From the NCBI RefSeq assembly GCF_000317125.1, contig NC_019695.1, positions 1,476,336-1,540,335 of the forward strand: a stretch of DNA of 64,000 nt, read 5' to 3'. Position 1 is the stretch's first letter. Each line of letters begins with the position of its first letter. This document shows positions 20,224-50,197 of the stretch, piece by piece. The notes below the pieces were generated by a model. It did no database searches. It was given only the letters and a program-made list of their open reading frames with translations, and was not told the origin of the DNA. Source of the stretch: Chroococcidiopsis thermalis PCC 7203. Lineage in GTDB: Bacteria; Cyanobacteriota; Cyanobacteriia; Cyanobacteriales; Chroococcidiopsidaceae. A program made the position numbers and the translations under genes.

Positions 20224-21213
20224 CTAACGAACACCAAACAACCACAACCACAGTGGCAAAGTCAACAACAGACTTGCAGAACCGAGTGCTAAAGCCGTCA
20301 CAGCCAAATCGCGATCGAGATCGTAAGCTTCCGCAATTACCAGAGTAGCAAAAGCGGGAGGCATAGCCATTTGTAAAACGATCGCTAGTTGAGGCGCGCC
20401 TGTAAAACCACATAGAGTTAAGACACTACCTACAACTAAAGGAACGATCAGCATTTTAATTGTTAAACTAACTGCGGCTTTGGGTAGATTGTGCCAAGAC
20501 TTGAGATGTTGCAAGCGCATCCCGATGAGAACCAACGATAAAGCAACCACACTCCAACCCAAGCTGGATAAAACTGATTCTGCGACAGCAGGTAAGGCAA
20601 CTTGACGAAATAACAAGCCAAACCCCATACTCCACAAAGCAGGATTGATTAATATTGCCTGGATGAGTGAAGTGCGATCGCTAACTCCCTTCCCAAATCG
20701 CGCCGCTAGCACTACACCTAAACCATAAGATCCCAAAGTCGATCCCAACAAATCGTAAAACAGCGTCCAGCCAAAATACTGCGTTCCCACCACCGCCAAA
20801 GCCACGGGAAACCCAATATAACCCGTGTTGCCTACCATAGCAGCTAGCAGAAAACTACCTTGGGTAGGTAATGGGTAGTTGGTAATGGGTAGTTGTTGGT
20901 TGTTGATTGTTGCTTCCCTATTCCCCTGCTCTTGTTTTTTGACTTTTAACTTTTGACTTTTGACTTTTAGCTTAATCCACCCCCAAGCTAAACCTGCTCC
21001 GAGTAAAATAGCCATCCAAGCGCATATAGGTGCGATCCAAATAGCTCCCGATAAGTCAGCTTGGCGCAAGAAGGCAATAATACTAATCGGGACTCCAATC
21101 CAAAACAGAAATTGTCCTAGAGTATGGGGAGAGAGTTGAGGTATTTTGCTGCTGGCGAAAAAGCCTAACGAAACCAACCCGATTAATTGGGCGTATAGTA
21201 TCAAAAGCTGCAT
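20224..21213 (-). CDS. AEC-family transporter with an in-frame repeat insertion
   Basis: Second auxin efflux carrier-type transporter, 329 residues. QGSFLLAAMVGNTGYIGFP and VLIGMRLQHL align with the paralogue at 11825-12799. Between the third hydrophobic segment (LGAGLAWGWI) and QGSFLL lies a strongly hydrophilic stretch of about 37 residues containing KLKVKSQKLKVKKQEQ and NNQQLPITNYPLPT. It is encoded by intergenic-type repeats. Without it the protein would be about 292 residues, still normal for the family. The insert probably forms a loop on one membrane face. No stop or frameshift results. The substrate is unknown. Confidence 0.88.
   Translation of the reverse strand: MQLLILYAQLIGLVSLGFFASSKIPQLSPHTLGQFLFWIGVPISIIAFLRQADLSGAIWIAPICAWMAILLGAGLAWGWIKLKVKSQKLKVKKQEQGNREATINNQQLPITNYPLPTQGSFLLAAMVGNTGYIGFPVALAVVGTQYFGWTLFYDLLGSTLGSYGLGVVLAARFGKGVSDRTSLIQAILINPALWSMGFGLLFRQVALPAVAESVLSSLGWSVVALSLVLIGMRLQHLKSWHNLPKAAVSLTIKMLIVPLVVGSVLTLCGFTGAPQLAIVLQMAMPPAFATLVIAEAYDLDRDLAVTALALGSASLLLTLPLWLWLFGVR
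20864..20971. repeat. Repeat tract inside the AEC gene
   Basis: GGTAATGGGTAGTTGG-type units and AACTTTTGACTTTTGACTTT-type units lie inside the coding frame at residues about 81-117. The same units are otherwise found between genes in this window. Confidence 0.75.
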
Positions 21214-24006: not shown

Positions 24007-24879
24007 TTAACTTTTAACTTTTGACTTGCTTTTCCTCGCTGTCGCCCCAATAGTTGAATAATAAATTGCCCATGACTGCGGATCTTCGGCAATTTGACAA
24101 TATCGCTCGATGTCTTGTTGCGTTGCTTTACCCGTAGCAATATATTTATCTGTTAATCGCTCGGCAGACATTTTCATAACTGTAGCAATTCCCGAACCAC
24201 CAGGGGCTAAAGGAGTATCATTTTCAACAGATAATTCTTGCAAATTCAACTGTTGAAATATGGTAGGCAATTTAATACCAAAAGCATAATCCATCCCCCT
24301 ACTAGCAAACATTTGGGCGATCGCCTCATTCACCCGATTCATCGACTGACAAGCTGCTTCATTTCCCGCGATCGCTCTAGCAGCAGAAAAATCTGGTTCT
24401 TCAATCACAATCCACCCACCAGGCTTGAGTAAATCTAACATTTTTGCGAGAGCAATTTGAAATTCTGGAACATGAATCAGCACGTAGCGAGTATGAATGA
24501 GATCGAAAGATTGACTCTTTAGCGCTAGATGACGAATATCGGCTTCTATAACTTCTAAATTCGCTCGTGCGAGCTTGGCAACAAAGCGAGTATTTAAATC
24601 GACAGCAACAACCTTACCATTTTCTCCAACAATTTCTGCCATCCAGCGGGCGATCGATCCTGCTCCTGCACCAACTTCCAGACAGCACCAATTAGGAGAA
24701 ATACCTGTTGCTTGAATTCGCTGACGACTGGCAGGATCGAAGACTCGTTCGATTGCTTGGAGTCTTGCCAATTCTTTCAACTCAGTTTCTGTCAGTTTAA
24801 ATTCTTGGGGTTCAACTGTTTTAGATTCAACTTTTTTCTCAGGCTGAGAATTAGCAAAGATGTATGTAGAATCTGACAT
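24007..24879 (-). CDS. Class I SAM-dependent methyltransferase
   Basis: Rossmann-fold methyltransferase, 290 residues from the ATG at 24879, preceded by AGGGG. An in-frame GTG at 24885 lies within that site. Motif I is LEVGAGAGS (about 67-75), motif II an acidic VVAVDLN, and motif III LDLLKPGGWIVIEEPD. The substrate is unknown; the layout resembles UbiE/Coq5-like small-molecule methyltransferases. It starts 20 bp after the pbpC stop, so it is probably in the pbpC operon. The last codons and stop (KSKVKS) lie within an AAAAGTTAAAAGTC repeat tract, so the native C-terminus has probably been replaced or extended. Confidence 0.87.
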   Translation of the reverse strand: MSDSTYIFANSQPEKKVESKTVEPQEFKLTETELKELARLQAIERVFDPASRQRIQATGISPNWCCLEVGAGAGSIARWMAEIVGENGKVVAVDLNTRFVAKLARANLEVIEADIRHLALKSQSFDLIHTRYVLIHVPEFQIALAKMLDLLKPGGWIVIEEPDFSAARAIAGNEAACQSMNRVNEAIAQMFASRGMDYAFGIKLPTIFQQLNLQELSVENDTPLAPGGSGIATVMKMSAERLTDKYIATGKATQQDIERYCQIAEDPQSWAIYYSTIGATARKSKSKVKS

Positions 24880-24899
24880 TTTCACCCCTGTAACTCTGA

Positions 24900-27476
24900 C
24901 TAATTTTTGCTTACACGACCGATAGAAAAACCTCGACGAGTAGGTTTATTTTGTGCTAACTGTACTTGAAAACTGACGCGATCGCTCGTCCCATCACTTT
25001 TAACTTCCACAGTCCAGTTCCCAGGACGCAGCTCCCAAAAGAAAGCATCAGATGTCTGCGTTGCTAGTTTCTCACCGTTAAGCCACCATTCTACAGGTTT
25101 ATCTGACTTTGCAGCGAGTTTAAATTCAAGCCGTTGCTGACTGTCACTCGCACCATTACTAGGGTAGAGGAGAAACAAAGCGCCGTTGGTAGGAGACACG
25201 ATTTTCAGTCCGCTCGAAACTCCAGGCGATCGCCCTTGGGTTGCCAACCATTCATCATATTCTCTAGGTAAGTTAAGCCGATATTGCGGCTCTCCTGCTG
25301 TATGAGCAGTTACCAGTTGATAAAAAGTATCGGGGTGGCGATCGTATTCGTCCAAATCTTCTGGATAAAAATATTCCTGTACCACTGTCGGACAAGCAGG
25401 TGTAGGTTTCAATCCCGACAAAGCACAGACGGGACGTAAAACCAAACCAGATGGAGCAGGAAAAGCCGCAGGTTCTCGATCTTCGTGCAAGTGCAACATA
25501 ATCCGATTCCACAAAGGAGCAGCACCCATCACCCCAGATACCTGACGCATCGGTTCGCCGTTAAAATTGCCTACCCAAGTTGCAACTGTATAATCAGTCG
25601 TAAATCCTACCGTCCAAGTATCGCGAAAATTAGAAGAAGTTCCCGTTTTCACCGCAGCAGGAAAAGGCAAATTCAACACCGAGTCCACACCAAAAGACTT
25701 AGCACGAGCATGGCGATCGCTTAATATGTCAGTTATCAGTGACCAGTGACCAGTTATCAGTGTTAGGTGGTAATTGGTAGTTGGTAATTGGTAATTGGTA
25801 GTTGCTCCCTTGTCCCCTTGTCCCCCTTGTCCCCCTTCGCCCCCTAATCTCCACTCCCTTCGGTCGTGGGGTCCCCGAGTTCCCCCTTGTCCCCCTTGTC
25901 CCCCTCTCCCTTGTCCCCCTTGTCCCCCTTGTCCCCCTCTCCCTTGTCCCCCTTGTCCCCCTTGTCCCCCTTGTCCCCCTTGTCCCCCTTGTCCCCCTTG
26001 TCCCCGACTCCCGCTTAATTCCATAGAATTTCTTGCCATAGTCGCATAAGCACGGGCTAATTCCCACAGACTGACTTCGCCGCTACCGAGGGTTAAGCCG
26101 AGTCCGTAATATTCCGGGGGCTGGTTTAAATGCTCGAAACCAAGTTGATGCAAGCGTTGTAAGAAATTTTCTACACCAACTCGCTCCAAGACTCGCACGG
26201 CGGGAACGTTAAGAGAATTCGCTAAGGCAACGCGGACGCGCACGGGTCCTTGAAAGGATTCGCTATAATCTGTAGGGCTGTAAAGCCGCGCTCCAGGAAT
26301 AGCATAGTGGGTAGGTACGTCTGCTAATACGGTATTTGGACGAATTAGCCGCTGTTCCAAGGCTAATTGATACAAAAAAGGTTTTAGGGTAGATCCGGGC
26401 TGTCGAAGTGCTTGCACGCCGTCGTTACGCCCCAATTCGGCATCGGCAAAGTAATCGGGAGAACCGACATAAGCTAAAACTGCACCAGAATGATTATCGA
26501 TAACTAAAGCAGCAGCGTGGTGGACGTTGTGTGGTGTAAGGTGGCGCACGATCTGCTGGACTTGGACTTCTACAAACTGTTGCAAGGGACGATCTATAGT
26601 TGTCCGAATTTGGGATGGGTGTTGTTTGGGAAGTTGACTAGCTGCCCAAAATAGAAAATGCGGTGCAGCGATAATTCCCTGCCGTCGCGACTGGAGCGTA
26701 ATTGCTTCGATATTGGCTTTTTCTGCCTCAGCACGGGTAATATGTTTATCTAGAACCATGCGATCGAGGACATATTTCTGTCGCCGTTTCAATCTTTCCC
26801 AACTATCGTAAGGATTCAGATATACCGGATTGTTGGGTATGGCTGCTAGCAGACTAGCTTGTGCTAAATTTAGTTCGGATGCAGGCATTCCCAGATATAT
26901 TCGCGCCGCAGCTTCTACGCCGTAGATATTGCCACCCATCGGCAGACGGTTGACGTAAGCTTGCAAGATCTCGTCTTTGCTCATGCCTGCGGCTAGCCGC
27001 CAAGATAACCAAATTTCCCGAACTTTCCCCCAGAAGTTGCGCGGTAAGGGTTCTAGCATCCGTGCTAGTTGCATTGTAATTGTCGATGCGCCGCTGACAA
27101 TTCTTCTAGCTTGAATAGAAGTGACGATCGCCCGTCCGACTGCCTTTAAATCCAACGCTCCATGATGATAGAATTGCCCGTCTTCTGCTGCTAAAATTGC
27201 TTGGATAAACTGGGGCGAAACTGCATTCAACGGTACGGCTACAGTATGGTTGCGATCGCGAGTCAGTAAAGTTCCCAAAGGTAACCCGTGGCGATCGCTA
27301 AATTCAATTGCCTGTCCATCCTGTAAGATATCTTTGGCATGAATTGGCGCAAGATACGGTAAGCCACGGACAATCAGACACAGTAGTATCAAAACAAAAA
27401 TTCCCTTCTTCCAGAGGAGCCGGGAGTCGGAAGTCGGGAGTCGGGAGTCGGGAGACAAGGGGGACAAGGGGGACAA
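24900..27476 (-). CDS. pbpC: Penicillin-binding protein 1C with in-frame repeat insertion
   Basis: Bifunctional murein synthase of the PBP1C type. An N-terminal membrane anchor (GIFVLILLCLIVRGLPYL) is followed by a glycosyltransferase domain (ILAAEDGQFYHHGALD, GASTITMQLARML) and a transpeptidase domain with S362 (GSTLKP), S421 (SLN) and K610 (KTGTS). The C-terminal PBP1C domain ends after 850. Residues about 487-580 (low-complexity GQGGQG, then TTNYQLPTTNY) are encoded by an intergenic-type repeat cassette between SLN and KTG. Removing about 93 residues gives about 765, close to normal PBP1C length. The called start is a TTG inside repeats; no ATG or GTG precedes the anchor, so the true start is unclear. 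It appears cotranscribed with the downstream methyltransferase gene. Confidence 0.9.
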   Translation of the reverse strand: MSPLSPLSPDSRLPTSDSRLLWKKGIFVLILLCLIVRGLPYLAPIHAKDILQDGQAIEFSDRHGLPLGTLLTRDRNHTVAVPLNAVSPQFIQAILAAEDGQFYHHGALDLKAVGRAIVTSIQARRIVSGASTITMQLARMLEPLPRNFWGKVREIWLSWRLAAGMSKDEILQAYVNRLPMGGNIYGVEAAARIYLGMPASELNLAQASLLAAIPNNPVYLNPYDSWERLKRRQKYVLDRMVLDKHITRAEAEKANIEAITLQSRRQGIIAAPHFLFWAASQLPKQHPSQIRTTIDRPLQQFVEVQVQQIVRHLTPHNVHHAAALVIDNHSGAVLAYVGSPDYFADAELGRNDGVQALRQPGSTLKPFLYQLALEQRLIRPNTVLADVPTHYAIPGARLYSPTDYSESFQGPVRVRVALANSLNVPAVRVLERVGVENFLQRLHQLGFEHLNQPPEYYGLGLTLGSGEVSLWELARAYATMARNSMELSGSRGQGGQGGQGGQGGQGGQGGQGRGGQGGQGGQGRGGQGGQGGTRGPHDRREWRLGGEGGQGGQGDKGATTNYQLPTTNYHLTLITGHWSLITDILSDRHARAKSFGVDSVLNLPFPAAVKTGTSSNFRDTWTVGFTTDYTVATWVGNFNGEPMRQVSGVMGAAPLWNRIMLHLHEDREPAAFPAPSGLVLRPVCALSGLKPTPACPTVVQEYFYPEDLDEYDRHPDTFYQLVTAHTAGEPQYRLNLPREYDEWLATQGRSPGVSSGLKIVSPTNGALFLLYPSNGASDSQQRLEFKLAAKSDKPVEWWLNGEKLATQTSDAFFWELRPGNWTVEVKSDGTSDRVSFQVQLAQNKPTRRGFSIGRVSKN
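25738..26017. repeat. Composite repeat cassette inserted within pbpC
   Basis: In coding direction: a long run of 9-bp GGGGGACAA units, some shortened; a 37-bp module (25835-25871); three more 9-mers; then TACCAAT-type heptamers and TGACCAG/TTATCAG units. The 37-bp module recurs with one or two changes at 57708-57744 in the same order. The tract stays open in the pbpC frame. Confidence 0.85.
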
Positions 27477-27610
27477 GGGAGCAGGGAGCGCACGAGCAGG
27501 GAGCAGAGGGGAAGAGGGAGGGGGAGAGTGGGAGAAGGGGAGTAATTACCAATTACCAATTACCAATTACCAACTACCAATTACCAATTACCACTGATAA
27601 CTAGTCACTA
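27416..27610. repeat. Composite repeat cassette between potB and pbpC
   Basis: GGGAGTCG units (27421-27450), GGGGGACAA 9-mers (27455-27480), an AGCAGGG segment, then TTACCAA heptamers (27541-27595) and an ACTAGTC piece. It occupies the pbpC 5' region, so the pbpC start codon and leader are made of repeat sequence. Confidence 0.8.
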
Positions 27611-28623
27611 GTCACTGAATTATTCCCGCCGTATTTAATTAATAGCGCGATCGCAATACTAACAGCTAGTACCAACACCATACTTAACGCCGAACCAAAT
27701 CCCCAGTTCTGGGTTGCGCCTAAAAACTGATTGTAAATTAACCTGGCGATCGTCATACTGGATGCACCACCTAGTAACTCTGGAGCAATGAAATCGCCAA
27801 TTGCCGTAATGAAAACTAACAGCGAACCTGCGGCAATTCCTGGTAAAGTTTGGGGGACAGTTACCTTCCAAAAGGTTTCAGCGGGATTTGCTCCTAAATC
27901 TGCGGCTGCTTCCAGCAATCTCCGGTCTAATCTTTCCAGGGAAGCGTAGAGAATCAGTACCATATAAGGCAGCAAATTGTAACTCAAGCCAATCAAAACT
28001 GCCGTACTGCTATTGTGAATCTGGAGGCTGGGTAAACCAACACTATTGAGCAAAGAGTTCAGCACGCCTGTAGGACGCAAAATCGTAATCCAGGCATAAG
28101 AACGCAGTAAAGAGGATGTCCACAGAGGTAAGACAAAACCCAATAAAAGTAGAGTCCGCCAGCGTTGAGGAGTCAACAAAGCAATCCAGTAGGCGACGGG
28201 AAATCCTAATAATAAGCAAATAATAGTACTAGAGCTAGCTAAAAATAGCGATCGCCCCATCACTCCCATATATAGGGGTTGAAATACCTGAATATAATTA
28301 TCTACACCGCTAGGATTAACAATATTTCCCGGGCGAAACCCTGGCACTAAACTCAACTCAAAGATAATCAGTGTTGGTAGTACCAACAACAATATCAACC
28401 AAATTCCAGCCGGGGTTAGAAAAATCGTCGGTTCTAGCCAATTCCACCAACGAGGATGTTTCGGTGGTAGCGGTGGTTCGGCATCCTGACTTGAGGTTGC
28501 ATCGAGTTGAAGTGGTGACTTTTTTGCAGGCACAGTTTGTAGAAGGGAGTAGGGAGCAATAATCAGTGACCAGTGACCAGTGGCCAGTGACCAGTTGTCA
28601 GTCAACAAATGAATAATGACCAA
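27601..28623 (-). CDS. potB: ABC transporter permease, spermidine/putrescine type (PotB-like)
   Basis: Inner-membrane permease of a polyamine-type importer, up to 340 residues. The first 30 (LTDNWSLATGHWSL) are encoded by heptamer repeats, so the true start may be the GTG at 28533 (product VPAKKSPLQLD). Six hydrophobic segments begin at TIFLTPAGIWLILLLVLPTL. The EAA loop EAAADLGANPAETFWKVTVP contacts the ATPase. It follows potD with a repeat-filled gap. A PotC-type partner is not found; it may be encoded elsewhere or the permease may homodimerise. Confidence 0.9.
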   Translation of the reverse strand: MVIIHLLTDNWSLATGHWSLIIAPYSLLQTVPAKKSPLQLDATSSQDAEPPLPPKHPRWWNWLEPTIFLTPAGIWLILLLVLPTLIIFELSLVPGFRPGNIVNPSGVDNYIQVFQPLYMGVMGRSLFLASSSTIICLLLGFPVAYWIALLTPQRWRTLLLLGFVLPLWTSSLLRSYAWITILRPTGVLNSLLNSVGLPSLQIHNSSTAVLIGLSYNLLPYMVLILYASLERLDRRLLEAAADLGANPAETFWKVTVPQTLPGIAAGSLLVFITAIGDFIAPELLGGASSMTIARLIYNQFLGATQNWGFGSALSMVLVLAVSIAIALLIKYGGNNSVTSD

Positions 28624-28690
28624 TGACCAATGACGAATAACTATTCATACTTCATCCTTTTTCCTTCTTCCTTCTTCCTTCATACTTTCC
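28555..28690. repeat. Heptamer and CTTCCTT tracts between potD and potB
   Basis: Contains TGACCAG and related units at 28561-28598, CAATGAC units at 28612-28632, and a CTTCTTCCTTCTTC stretch at 28660-28683. The rest is AT-rich. No gene. Confidence 0.6.
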
Positions 28691-28704
28691 TAATTTCCGA
28701 TCCC

Positions 28705-29826
28705 CTAGCTGCTAGTTAGTTGCGTCCAGTAGCGATCGTAAACTGCATCAAAATCTCCTAAAGGGGAAATGCGTTCGCATTTATTTAAGACCGATTCTGG
28801 AGGAAACAAATTGGTATCTTGGCGCAGTTGAGTTGGTAACTGTTCTAATGCAACTTGGTTGGGAATGGCTACGGTTTGTCGCTGACAAATCTCTGCTGCT
28901 ACCGTAGGTTCCAAGTTGTAATTGAGCCAAGTATAAGCAGCATCGAGATTGGGTGCGGTTTTGGGAATGGCGATCGTATCCGTCCACAAAGACGTGCCAC
29001 TGGCGGGAATGATGTATCTGAGATTGGGATTTTCTTGAGAAATTTTAATTCCATCAGTCGAATATGCCATCGCTAGCACTAAATCTCCAGCGAGGATTTG
29101 ACTGCGCCAAGCATCGGTATCAAATGCAGCAATACTGGGTTTGAGTTCTCGTAACTTCTCGTAAGCCTGTTTAATTTGCGACTCATCTTTGGAATTATAG
29201 GAATAACCCAACATTCGTAAAGTTGCGCCCATGACTTCCCGCACGTCATCAATTAAAGTCATGCGTCCTGATAGCTGCTGGCGGTTTTTCCACAAATATT
29301 CCCAATCTGTAGGTGGTTCTTTTAACTGCTGGGTATTGTAAACAAATCCAGTTGTTCCCCAACTCATGGGGATGCTGTGACGATTTTGCGGGTCGTAAGT
29401 CGGATTTTGAAATTGAGGGGCAAGTCGGTCTAAACCTTGGAGGCGCGAACGGTCGAGTTCGTGGAGCATTCCCATTTCTATCATACGCCGCACCATATAA
29501 TCGCTAGGATAGATGACGCTGTAATTTCCTCCTCCTCCCGCTTGTAACTTTGCCAGCATTGCTTCGTTTGATTCGTAGATGTCTGCAACGACTGGTGCTT
29601 TGAACTGAGCAGTAAAGTTTTTAATTAGTTTGTCATCTGTATACTGCGACCAGGTATAGACAAATAACTTGTCGGTTGGACCTGCTGATGCTGTTTCCCG
29701 TTGGACTCCTCCCTGTCTCCAGCCACAACGGGTGAGAGCAAGTCCAGAAAATGCTGCTACTGATGTGCGAATAAATCTGCGTCTCGATCGCGAAAATCTT
29801 TGTACTGGCTGATGGTTTGTGTTCAT
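28705..29826 (-). CDS. potD: Spermidine/putrescine-type ABC substrate-binding protein
   Basis: Periplasmic binding protein of the PotD/PotF class, 373 residues. The N-terminus has a twin-arginine-like signal (SRSRRRFIRTSVAAFSGLAL) ending near a Cys at position 34, which is not a canonical lipobox. LFVYTWSQYTDDKLIKNF opens the mature domain, and IYPSDYMVRRMIEMGML and DLVLAMAYSTDG are typical of PotD. The ligand is probably a polyamine, but related solutes cannot be excluded. It overlaps potA by 4 bp, so order and coupling are potA-potD-potB. Confidence 0.92.
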   Translation of the reverse strand: MNTNHQPVQRFSRSRRRFIRTSVAAFSGLALTRCGWRQGGVQRETASAGPTDKLFVYTWSQYTDDKLIKNFTAQFKAPVVADIYESNEAMLAKLQAGGGGNYSVIYPSDYMVRRMIEMGMLHELDRSRLQGLDRLAPQFQNPTYDPQNRHSIPMSWGTTGFVYNTQQLKEPPTDWEYLWKNRQQLSGRMTLIDDVREVMGATLRMLGYSYNSKDESQIKQAYEKLRELKPSIAAFDTDAWRSQILAGDLVLAMAYSTDGIKISQENPNLRYIIPASGTSLWTDTIAIPKTAPNLDAAYTWLNYNLEPTVAAEICQRQTVAIPNQVALEQLPTQLRQDTNLFPPESVLNKCERISPLGDFDAVYDRYWTQLTSS

Positions 29827-48304: not shown

Positions 48305-50197
48305 ATGAGTTTTGAACCACCCGATCCCTTAAAACTATTTGAATCAATAAGAAGAATCATAGATGCGATTGTTAGTTTTGTTAGAGCTAATCAATGGTCA
48401 AATTTATTAATATTAATTGGTACTCTTCTCGCTCTAATCCTGATAATTGATAGAGTTCTATTTGATAAGCTCATCACTGCATCCTTACCTAAAGATTATC
48501 CCATTGTTTTCTTAGTAATTGAGCTGCTGATTTTCATAACTGCTATTGCACTTAAACTCTTCAATTTAGATCGACCATTATCTCCTAGATTACGAAGGAT
48601 TTTGTTGCTACTTATGAGTGGCACAGTCCTAATTTATTTAATTGCTGGATTAATATTTCAGCATTTAATTGCTGGATTAATATTTCAGCCTTCAACTACT
48701 CAGTTTAAATGCTCAGATGGTAACGAATATTGCTTTAGTTGGGGTGAGAGAGTTTTAATTTCAGAAGATAGCCTAGAAGCTACTAGAAAGGAGAGTTGTA
48801 TGAATAACTTCAATCTTAAAAAAAACGGCACGCAAAGCTACGGTAAAAATACGGAAGAAGGCTTCGACGAAGCTGAAGCTCAATTCAGACAATATATTGA
48901 TAAACAGAAGTGTCCAAACGATCCAGAAGCGCATATTTACTTAAATAACGCCAAATACTTAAAGAACGCCAAAGCTCAGATGAGCGAAAAAAATCTTGTT
49001 AGAGTTGCTGTAAGTGTTCCAATTAGTAGAAGTAATTCTAAAGGTGTCTCTGAAGCACAAGAAACTTTGAGAGGCATTGCTCTAGCTCAGTATAAGGTGA
49101 ATGATAAAAAAGTTAATGGTATTGATGGAAAAAAACTAATAGTTGGCATTGCTGATGACGGCTTCAATAATGCTAAAGAGGTAGCCAAATTTTTAGTAGG
49201 AAGACCACCGATTTTGGGCGTAATTGGACACTCTACAAGTACTACTACTAAAGATGCTAGACCAATCTATCAAGAAGAGGGAGTTGTTGCTATTTCTCCT
49301 AGTAGTACTTTTGTTAGTTCTGATCGGTCGAGCGACAATGATTATGTATTTCGTACTGCTTCTAATGACAGCATTGCAGTAAAACAACTAGTCAAATACA
49401 TTAGCAATCATACAAAAATCAAAAAGATAGCGATTGTTCATGACAATGACATATATAGTGAAAGTTATAAAAAGATGTTTGAAAAAGAATTTAAATTTCT
49501 GGGAAATGGCTCTGAAGTTATCAATGAAAGCAACACAGGCTGCGATCTAAGCAACGATAACTTTGACGATGATGAGTGTTTAGAAAAAGTAGGAAAACAA
49601 GCAGAAGCACTGCTACTAGCTCCAAGTTCTCCAAGAGCAAAGAACGAACTAGTTCTATCTATCCTCAGAAAGGCAACTATACCTCTCTTTGGAGCAGATA
49701 GTATGTATAACTTAGAAGTTGCAAAAGCGCTTAACGATGCAAATAAGAGAATCATAGTTGCTGTTCCTTGGCATAGAAATAATCCTTGGTTGCCTTTACA
49801 ACAAGATGCCTATATCTACTTCGGTCAACATGCTATCAACTGGAATACGGCGATGGCGTATGATGCGACTTTAACTCTCGCTGAGGGTTTGCAAAAGGCA
49901 TCCAAAACCTGCTCATTTTGGGATAAAAAGCTAGAGAATCACTTCAATACAGATAAATGTCTCCGTATCGAGCTAAAGAATGTATTGTCAAAGCCTGATT
50001 TTTTTGTAGTAGAAGAGAGTGCTGTTGAAGGAGGAGTTATTCAGTTTGACGCATTTGGCGATCGCTGTGCTGAAGAAACAGACAAAGAGGCTAAAGAAGG
50101 CGGATACTGCGGACAGACTAACAACAAGATAGGCGTTTTAGTTGAAGCTAAAAATGGGAATTTTTTTCGCATTGATTTACCAAATAAAAAACTCTAA
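48305..50197 (+). CDS. Membrane-anchored type 1 periplasmic-binding-fold protein
   Basis: A 630-residue protein not organised like a free binding protein. Three N-terminal hydrophobic helices (about 36-56, 61-82, 94-118) are followed by a short segment with FSWGERVLIS and a helical part (EAEAQFRQYIDKQKCPNDPEAHIYLNNAKYL). A Leu/Ile/Val-receptor-like domain then runs from about 220 to 600 (RVAVSVPISR, LRGIALAQYKVND, VIGHSTSTTTKDARPIYQEE). The helical segment resembles one found in cyanobacterial proteins where this receptor domain is fused to kinases. No permease genes are adjacent, so it may be a sensor or scaffold. It is divergent from the alpha-2-macroglobulin gene. Confidence 0.8.
   Translation: MSFEPPDPLKLFESIRRIIDAIVSFVRANQWSNLLILIGTLLALILIIDRVLFDKLITASLPKDYPIVFLVIELLIFITAIALKLFNLDRPLSPRLRRILLLLMSGTVLIYLIAGLIFQHLIAGLIFQPSTTQFKCSDGNEYCFSWGERVLISEDSLEATRKESCMNNFNLKKNGTQSYGKNTEEGFDEAEAQFRQYIDKQKCPNDPEAHIYLNNAKYLKNAKAQMSEKNLVRVAVSVPISRSNSKGVSEAQETLRGIALAQYKVNDKKVNGIDGKKLIVGIADDGFNNAKEVAKFLVGRPPILGVIGHSTSTTTKDARPIYQEEGVVAISPSSTFVSSDRSSDNDYVFRTASNDSIAVKQLVKYISNHTKIKKIAIVHDNDIYSESYKKMFEKEFKFLGNGSEVINESNTGCDLSNDNFDDDECLEKVGKQAEALLLAPSSPRAKNELVLSILRKATIPLFGADSMYNLEVAKALNDANKRIIVAVPWHRNNPWLPLQQDAYIYFGQHAINWNTAMAYDATLTLAEGLQKASKTCSFWDKKLENHFNTDKCLRIELKNVLSKPDFFVVEESAVEGGVIQFDAFGDRCAEETDKEAKEGGYCGQTNNKIGVLVEAKNGNFFRIDLPNKKL
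48636..48689 (+). repeat. 27-bp perfect tandem duplication in coding sequence
   Basis: Two identical 27-bp units (48636-48662 and 48663-48689) encode the doubled HLIAGLIFQ/YLIAGLIFQ at the end of the third membrane helix. The duplication adds nine residues in frame. Confidence 0.9.

Follow-up and report, generated by a model that had tools for sequence, protein, structure and literature searches.

How can a penicillin-binding protein carry, between two motifs of its transpeptidase domain, a long stretch encoded by repeats of a kind found mostly between genes? The question is raised by the chromosome of Chroococcidiopsis thermalis PCC 7203 (NC_019695.1), of which we analysed a window of 64,000 nucleotides (positions 1,476,336 to 1,540,335; coordinates below are those of the window). 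An initial annotation had described 9-bp and 7-bp repeats inside a PBP1C gene as an intergenic repeat cassette inserted in frame. The repeats, their coordinates and the open frame are as it described. We propose, with a probability of roughly 0.82, that repeats resembling the cyanobacterial STRR heptamers have entered coding sequence at many places, where they are tolerated as disordered loops, and that the PBP1C insert is one composite case. What the initial annotation had missed is that the cassette replaces a native loop, that relatives appear to have been invaded independently at this place and that dozens of other genes carry such inserts.

The host gene (24900-27476, minus strand, as are all parts of the gene and cassette described here) encodes a PBP1C-type class A penicillin-binding protein. 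Its product of 858 residues, counted from an in-frame TTG at 27476, matches TIGR02073 (PBP_1c) with 565.7 bits in two stretches and thereby passes the curated cut-off of 494.2, and the Pfam domains Transgly, Transpeptidase and BiPBP_C are found. The SxxK, SxN and KTG motifs are intact, with S362/K365, S421/N423 and K610-G612 invariant in alignments. S421 (26214-26216) is the serine of the SLN motif and K610 (25647-25649) the lysine of KTG, as had been assigned; both are invariant in the alignments A1 and A2. The cassette proper (25734-26012) lies between these two residues, is encoded by repeats and has no stop in the frame that is used.

Along the sense strand, native sequence ending in ATGGCAAGAAATTCTATGGAATTAAGC is followed by one copy of the heptamer GGGAGTC (26006-26012), with which the cassette begins on its 5' side and which in the congener G002 forms an array of about four. 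Then come a 9-bp array (GGGGGACAA)n that is interrupted by GGGAGA and encodes GQG repeats (25886-26005), a dispersed 53-bp module (GGGGGAACTCGGGGACCCC...GGGGGCGAAGG; 25834-25886), a second (GGGGGACAA)n array (25809-25835), AATTACC/AACTACC heptamers that encode TTNYQLPTTNYH (25768-25804) and finally ACTGATA/ACTGGTC (ACTGRTM) heptamers (25734-25761). The cassette is not wholly heptameric; the GGGGGACAA units, below called G9, and the 53-bp module make up most of it. For the arrays in 25768-26012, Tandem Repeats Finder gives scores of up to 216, far from chance. The open frame alone is only mildly surprising, because 3.8% of composition-matched shuffles of the insert are likewise free of stops. 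The 53-bp module recurs seven times elsewhere in the first 1.6 Mb of the host genome, with 96-98% identity in six of these copies, which makes the insert a mosaic built from dispersed modules; no copy was found in 0.8 Mb of G002. The last heptamers continue into, and overlap, the codons of the native W-x-L-x-T-D motif (residues 578-583; junction codons TGG TCA CTG ATA ACT GAC), in which W578, L580 and D583 are invariant in alignment A1. The 3' array may have been seeded by microhomology on these heptamer-like native codons, which we favour over chance mimicry of the motif by the heptamer peptide. No inverted repeat of at least 10 bp is present in 25720-26046. Two other types of insertion were considered and rejected: a self-splicing intron, as no Rfam match was obtained at E 0.1 in 24500-28800, and an intein, as no splicing (Hint) domain is among the Pfam matches of PBP1C.

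Comparison with orthologues indicates what the cassette has displaced. The SLN-KTG spacing is 189 residues in PCC 7203, against 119-125 in fifteen orthologues without a large insert and 129-131 in two more, a net gain of about 65-70 residues over the usual spacing. The earlier statement that removal of the repeats leaves about 96 residues and that this is normal does not agree with these values. The native segment of the orthologues (for example GQAIPLVTTF..., or GQAIPLVTTFTDAAPATVLAASPT in G007) is missing from PCC 7203, and the cassette is therefore a replacement, in which a native loop of about 25 residues has been exchanged for 95 (residues 483-577; 285 bp, 25746-26030), as delimited by orthologue comparison, open frame and AlphaFold confidence (pLDDT).

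The same loop carries other repeats in relatives. In G002 it consists of GGGAGTC, AATTACC and ACTGGTC heptamers and in a further congener, G001, of GGAATTC and AAAATTC heptamers plus another module, in both cases in frame. With 95 residues in PCC 7203, about 43 in G002 and 76 in G001, the loop does vary in length, as had been supposed, and it does so between species. The accompanying idea that units come and go without a frame shift holds for the 9-bp part, whereas changes in the heptamer parts would shift the frame. Beyond the genus, an unlike insert of about 90 residues occupies the loop in G026 (L003), a duplication of 40 residues is found there in Hydrocoleum (L033) and a repeat of the CCCATCTC type in G012 (L006), and repeat-like loops are present in Stenomitos (VRSQKSGVRSQES; L032) and Nostoc FACHB-973 (IQNPKSKIQNS; L036); other orthologues keep a short loop. 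The aligned class A protein PBP1a (4oon) has a long loop at the equivalent position, too. The site is a naturally insertion-tolerant loop and, judging from these sequences, it appears to have been invaded independently in relatives by different cassettes. Relatives thus show different residues from different repeats here, and not the same residues from unrelated DNA. Long tandem repeats are prone to assembly error, and one could suspect that the insert is an artefact of that kind. However, three separately assembled congeners have different cassettes at one site, every one in frame, and length differences at gene sites respect the frame, which leaves this explanation a negligible probability.

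Whether the protein survives the exchange can be judged from its flanks. A large insert inside the transpeptidase domain, with the native loop gone, might have inactivated PBP1C, as the initial annotation had considered, and left it decaying, and the G001 protein (L004) is ended by a TAG about 37 residues short of the C-terminus of its relatives. However, pairwise comparison with G002 gives a ratio of nonsynonymous to synonymous substitution rates (dN/dS) of 0.084 for the part preceding the insert and 0.176 for the part following it; with G001 the two values are 0.092 and 0.117. Values of 0.08-0.18 on either side point to purifying selection, the catalytic motifs are intact and the frame is kept with three different cassettes, so that inactivation is very improbable. 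The alternative that had been offered beside it, a tolerated flexible loop, is in line with these ratios and with the AlphaFold model, in which pLDDT is about 30 at residues 487-562 and above 90 across most of the flanking domain. The insert links the helices 470-481 and 575-585 of this confidently predicted domain, the predicted fold matches class A penicillin-binding proteins, and the insert itself is predicted to be a disordered loop.

How far does this extend beyond one gene? Our census covered 1.6 Mb of the PCC 7203 chromosome (G000) and 0.8 Mb of G002. The former contains 494 clusters of dispersed arrays with 7- or 9-bp units: 281 between genes, 156 in contact with a gene end and 57 within genes. 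The designation of the repeat family as intergenic was therefore apt. Internal clusters number 57, against about 278 expected under random placement. Still, about 12% of the clusters are gene-internal, and extrapolation to the size of the genome gives some 240 of them. A comparison of orthologous genes, 379-380 of them each way, found all 22 in-gene clusters of G000 and 24 of the 25 in G002 to be in frame and open (46/47 overall). The peptide encoded by AATTACC arrays has a patchy distribution: 62 of the 100 related genomes, and 40 of the 59 genera, have it.

Cassette hosts that pass curated family cut-offs include DNA polymerase I (PolA), MutS, MutL, PEP carboxylase, CobB, NAD+ synthase (NadE), RsmB, CobN, a GyrA-type topoisomerase, PgeF, QueA and IspD. 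Two histidine kinases have cassettes at the same HATPase hairpin, and a third has one near it. The only case out of frame is the GyrA-type gene of G002 (G002:C1:331928-334439, minus strand), which is broken at a heptamer array into halves of 544 and 358 amino acids, while the copies in G000 and G001 are intact (841/842 amino acids); an assembly indel, a phase switch or recoding are possible causes of the split. These observations bear on the possibility that the loops are functional, either because PBP1C and other proteins are tuned by length changes in the repeats or because heptamer arrays act as on/off phase switches. The repeated retaking of the PBP1C loop in relatives, the shared hairpin of the two kinases and the different frames of the G002 GyrA-type halves would fit such a role. 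However, 46 of 47 in-gene arrays are in frame, unlike phase-variable loci, the hosts are mostly unrelated housekeeping enzymes, and the recurrent sites are those where tolerance of a loop is expected anyway. We consider a functional loop unlikely. The cassettes in mutS (L218:15363-18050) and mutL (L210:14564-16510) are both in frame; these two genes normally restrain repeat instability.

If the repeats within genes are a filtered subset of those that land everywhere, the filters should be visible in frame and orientation. At unique, deduplicated orthologous sites that differ between species, length differences are multiples of three at 20 of 24 in-gene sites and at 31 of 111 intergenic ones (Fisher p 6.5e-7), and the intergenic differences favour whole heptamers (multiples of seven in 36/111, p 2e-6). 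The G9 unit is free of stops in all six frames and GAGCAGG on both strands, and between genes neither has a preferred strand (G9 29:23, GAGCAGG 13:15). Within genes both are one-sided (20:0 and 10:0; together 30:0), always in the orientation that encodes GQG/GDK/GTR and EQGAGSR and never in that encoding LSP/CPP/VPL and PAPCSLL. Units that are hydrophilic both ways show no strand bias in genes (GGGAGTC 7:10, GGAATTC 6:7). The orientation rules are best explained by selection on the translated peptide, and selection appears to keep only in-frame repeats that encode hydrophilic residues.

The one-sidedness could instead reflect a role of the DNA or RNA: with the G-rich strand as the coding one, arrays would fold into G-quadruplexes and so stall transcription or translation between one folding unit and the next. 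In-gene G9 arrays are indeed always G-rich on the coding strand, and related G-rich heptamers form quadruplexes in vitro (PMC4692102). However, arrays that are not G-rich (AATTACC, AAAGTCA and AAAATTC) are frequent in genes, the G-rich GGGAGTC has no strand bias, the bias across families is explained by hydrophilicity and no Rfam family matches the region. A quadruplex role is accordingly improbable, more so than a functional loop.

Our preferred reading, the spread of tolerated disordered loops, would work as follows. Dispersed modules, STRR-type heptamers together with the G-rich 9-bp repeat, land all over the genome, and in PBP1C they would have taken over a variable surface loop and be translated as a disordered, hydrophilic segment with a nearly neutral effect. 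Insertions within genes would persist only in loops, and there only if the reading strand is free of stops, the frame is kept and the encoded peptide is hydrophilic; established arrays would go on changing under the same filters by gain, loss and exchange of modules. Arrays would likely spread by being copied or by recombining with one another, and not through a transposase of their own. Neighbouring modules are ordered in a polar way: in all 29 pairs of G9 and AATTACC the G9 array comes first and both lie on one strand, and GAGCAGG precedes G9 in 8 of 9 pairs. This order hints that composites are copied as units.

Several points weigh against this reading. Neutral spread alone does not account for the polar order. 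Gene calls were taken from a simple hexamer model, and the comparisons with G002 span 0.8 Mb. No clean empty site or target-site duplication could be defined among the orthologous sites compared, and 37 of the 47 have an array in both species. The position of the insert in a loop was viewed structurally for PBP1C only. Within genes, AATTACC, AAAGTCA and AAAATTC occur in their stop-free orientation only (29:0, 11:0 and 6:0), an orientation that for AATTACC-type arrays is forced, at least partly, by the definition of genes as open frames; for this reason we rely on the G9 and GAGCAGG counts. These are in turn partly tied to stop-limited AATTACC modules of the same cassettes, although in-gene G9 arrays without linked AATTACC or ACTGRTM heptamers are still 8:0.

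The cassettes resemble several known systems in part. The cyanobacterial STRR heptamers are described as tandem 7-bp units at hundreds of places, mostly intergenic (Mazel 1990, as cited in PMC6513891). The AATTACC and ACTGRTM arrays and the GGGAGTC unit share the heptameric period, and the 494 clusters share the dispersal. In PCC 7203, however, polar composites combine the heptamers with longer modules and a 9-bp repeat, and the gene-internal fraction of the clusters is nearly always in frame. The G-rich GGGNATC heptamers of Xanthomonas and Nostoc, also mostly intergenic (PMC4692102), are similar to the GGGAGTC-type units, whereas the in-gene G9 and GAGCAGG arrays of PCC 7203 keep to the coding strand. 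The ACTGATA heptamers that close the cassette on its 3' side are a rotated form of TAACTGA, known as direct repeats from Beggiatoaceae and cyanobacteria; in that work they are described as intergenic and close to start codons (PMC4679880), but here the heptamer is coding.

Functionally, the nearest analogue is the Rickettsia palindromic element (RPE), a palindromic sequence of about 150 bp for which 44 insertions into unrelated genes are reported in R. conorii (PMC10969869). In both systems dispersed repeats lie in frame within many unrelated genes as translated fusions, translation being assumed in our case, but the PBP1C insert is made of tandem repeats, lacks an inverted repeat and has a strongly G-rich strand. 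PARCEL elements also are variable-number coding repeats spread among genes. They consist of a 25-residue amphipathic palindromic motif in open reading frames of unassigned function (PMC2996958), in contrast to the 7- and 9-bp arrays in core enzymes found here. As a tentative extension, the polar cassettes might be RPE-like coding selfish DNA, present in a few percent of conserved genes including mutS and mutL, continuously making disordered loops and occasionally switching frame at heptamers as in the GyrA-type gene of G002. Searches of open-licence papers turned up RPEs, PARCELs and repeats between genes; none of these papers reported an in-frame insertion of cyanobacterial heptamers, and none mentioned the cassette-encoded peptides.

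Cyanobacterial heptamers, known since 1990 and generally taken as intergenic, would thus enter the proteome genome-wide, with 22 in-gene clusters among 379 compared genes; enzymes of central metabolism, replication and repair are included. Which insertions survive can be described by three simple filters: an open strand, the frame and a hydrophilic peptide. The genus may therefore serve as a natural experiment on where enzymes tolerate new loops and on how noncoding repeats turn into protein. For annotation, stretches such as NYQLPIT, GDKGDK and NSEFGIR should be read as repeat-derived and not as domains.

Further repeats lie in the same window. A second composite cassette of GGAGTCG, GGGGGACAA and AATTACC arrays occupies the 5' end of the PBP1C gene (27416-27593, minus strand). 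The TTG chosen as start falls within this repeat, and the start at 27476 is therefore only putative; a coding-score gene finder chose 27392 instead. The G9 unit of this second cassette is read in the SPL orientation. A heptamer cassette at 28564-28638 supplies the N-terminal codons (TDNWSLATGHWSL) of an ABC permease gene (27601-28623). An in-frame cassette at 20867-20968, encoding KVKSQKLKVKK...NYPLP, lies within a membrane transport protein gene (PF03547; open reading frame about 20224-21177, minus strand). An exact 27-bp duplication at 48636-48689 (YLIAGLIFQ/HLIAGLIFQ), in a periplasmic-binding-protein-like reading frame, is not a dispersed repeat family.
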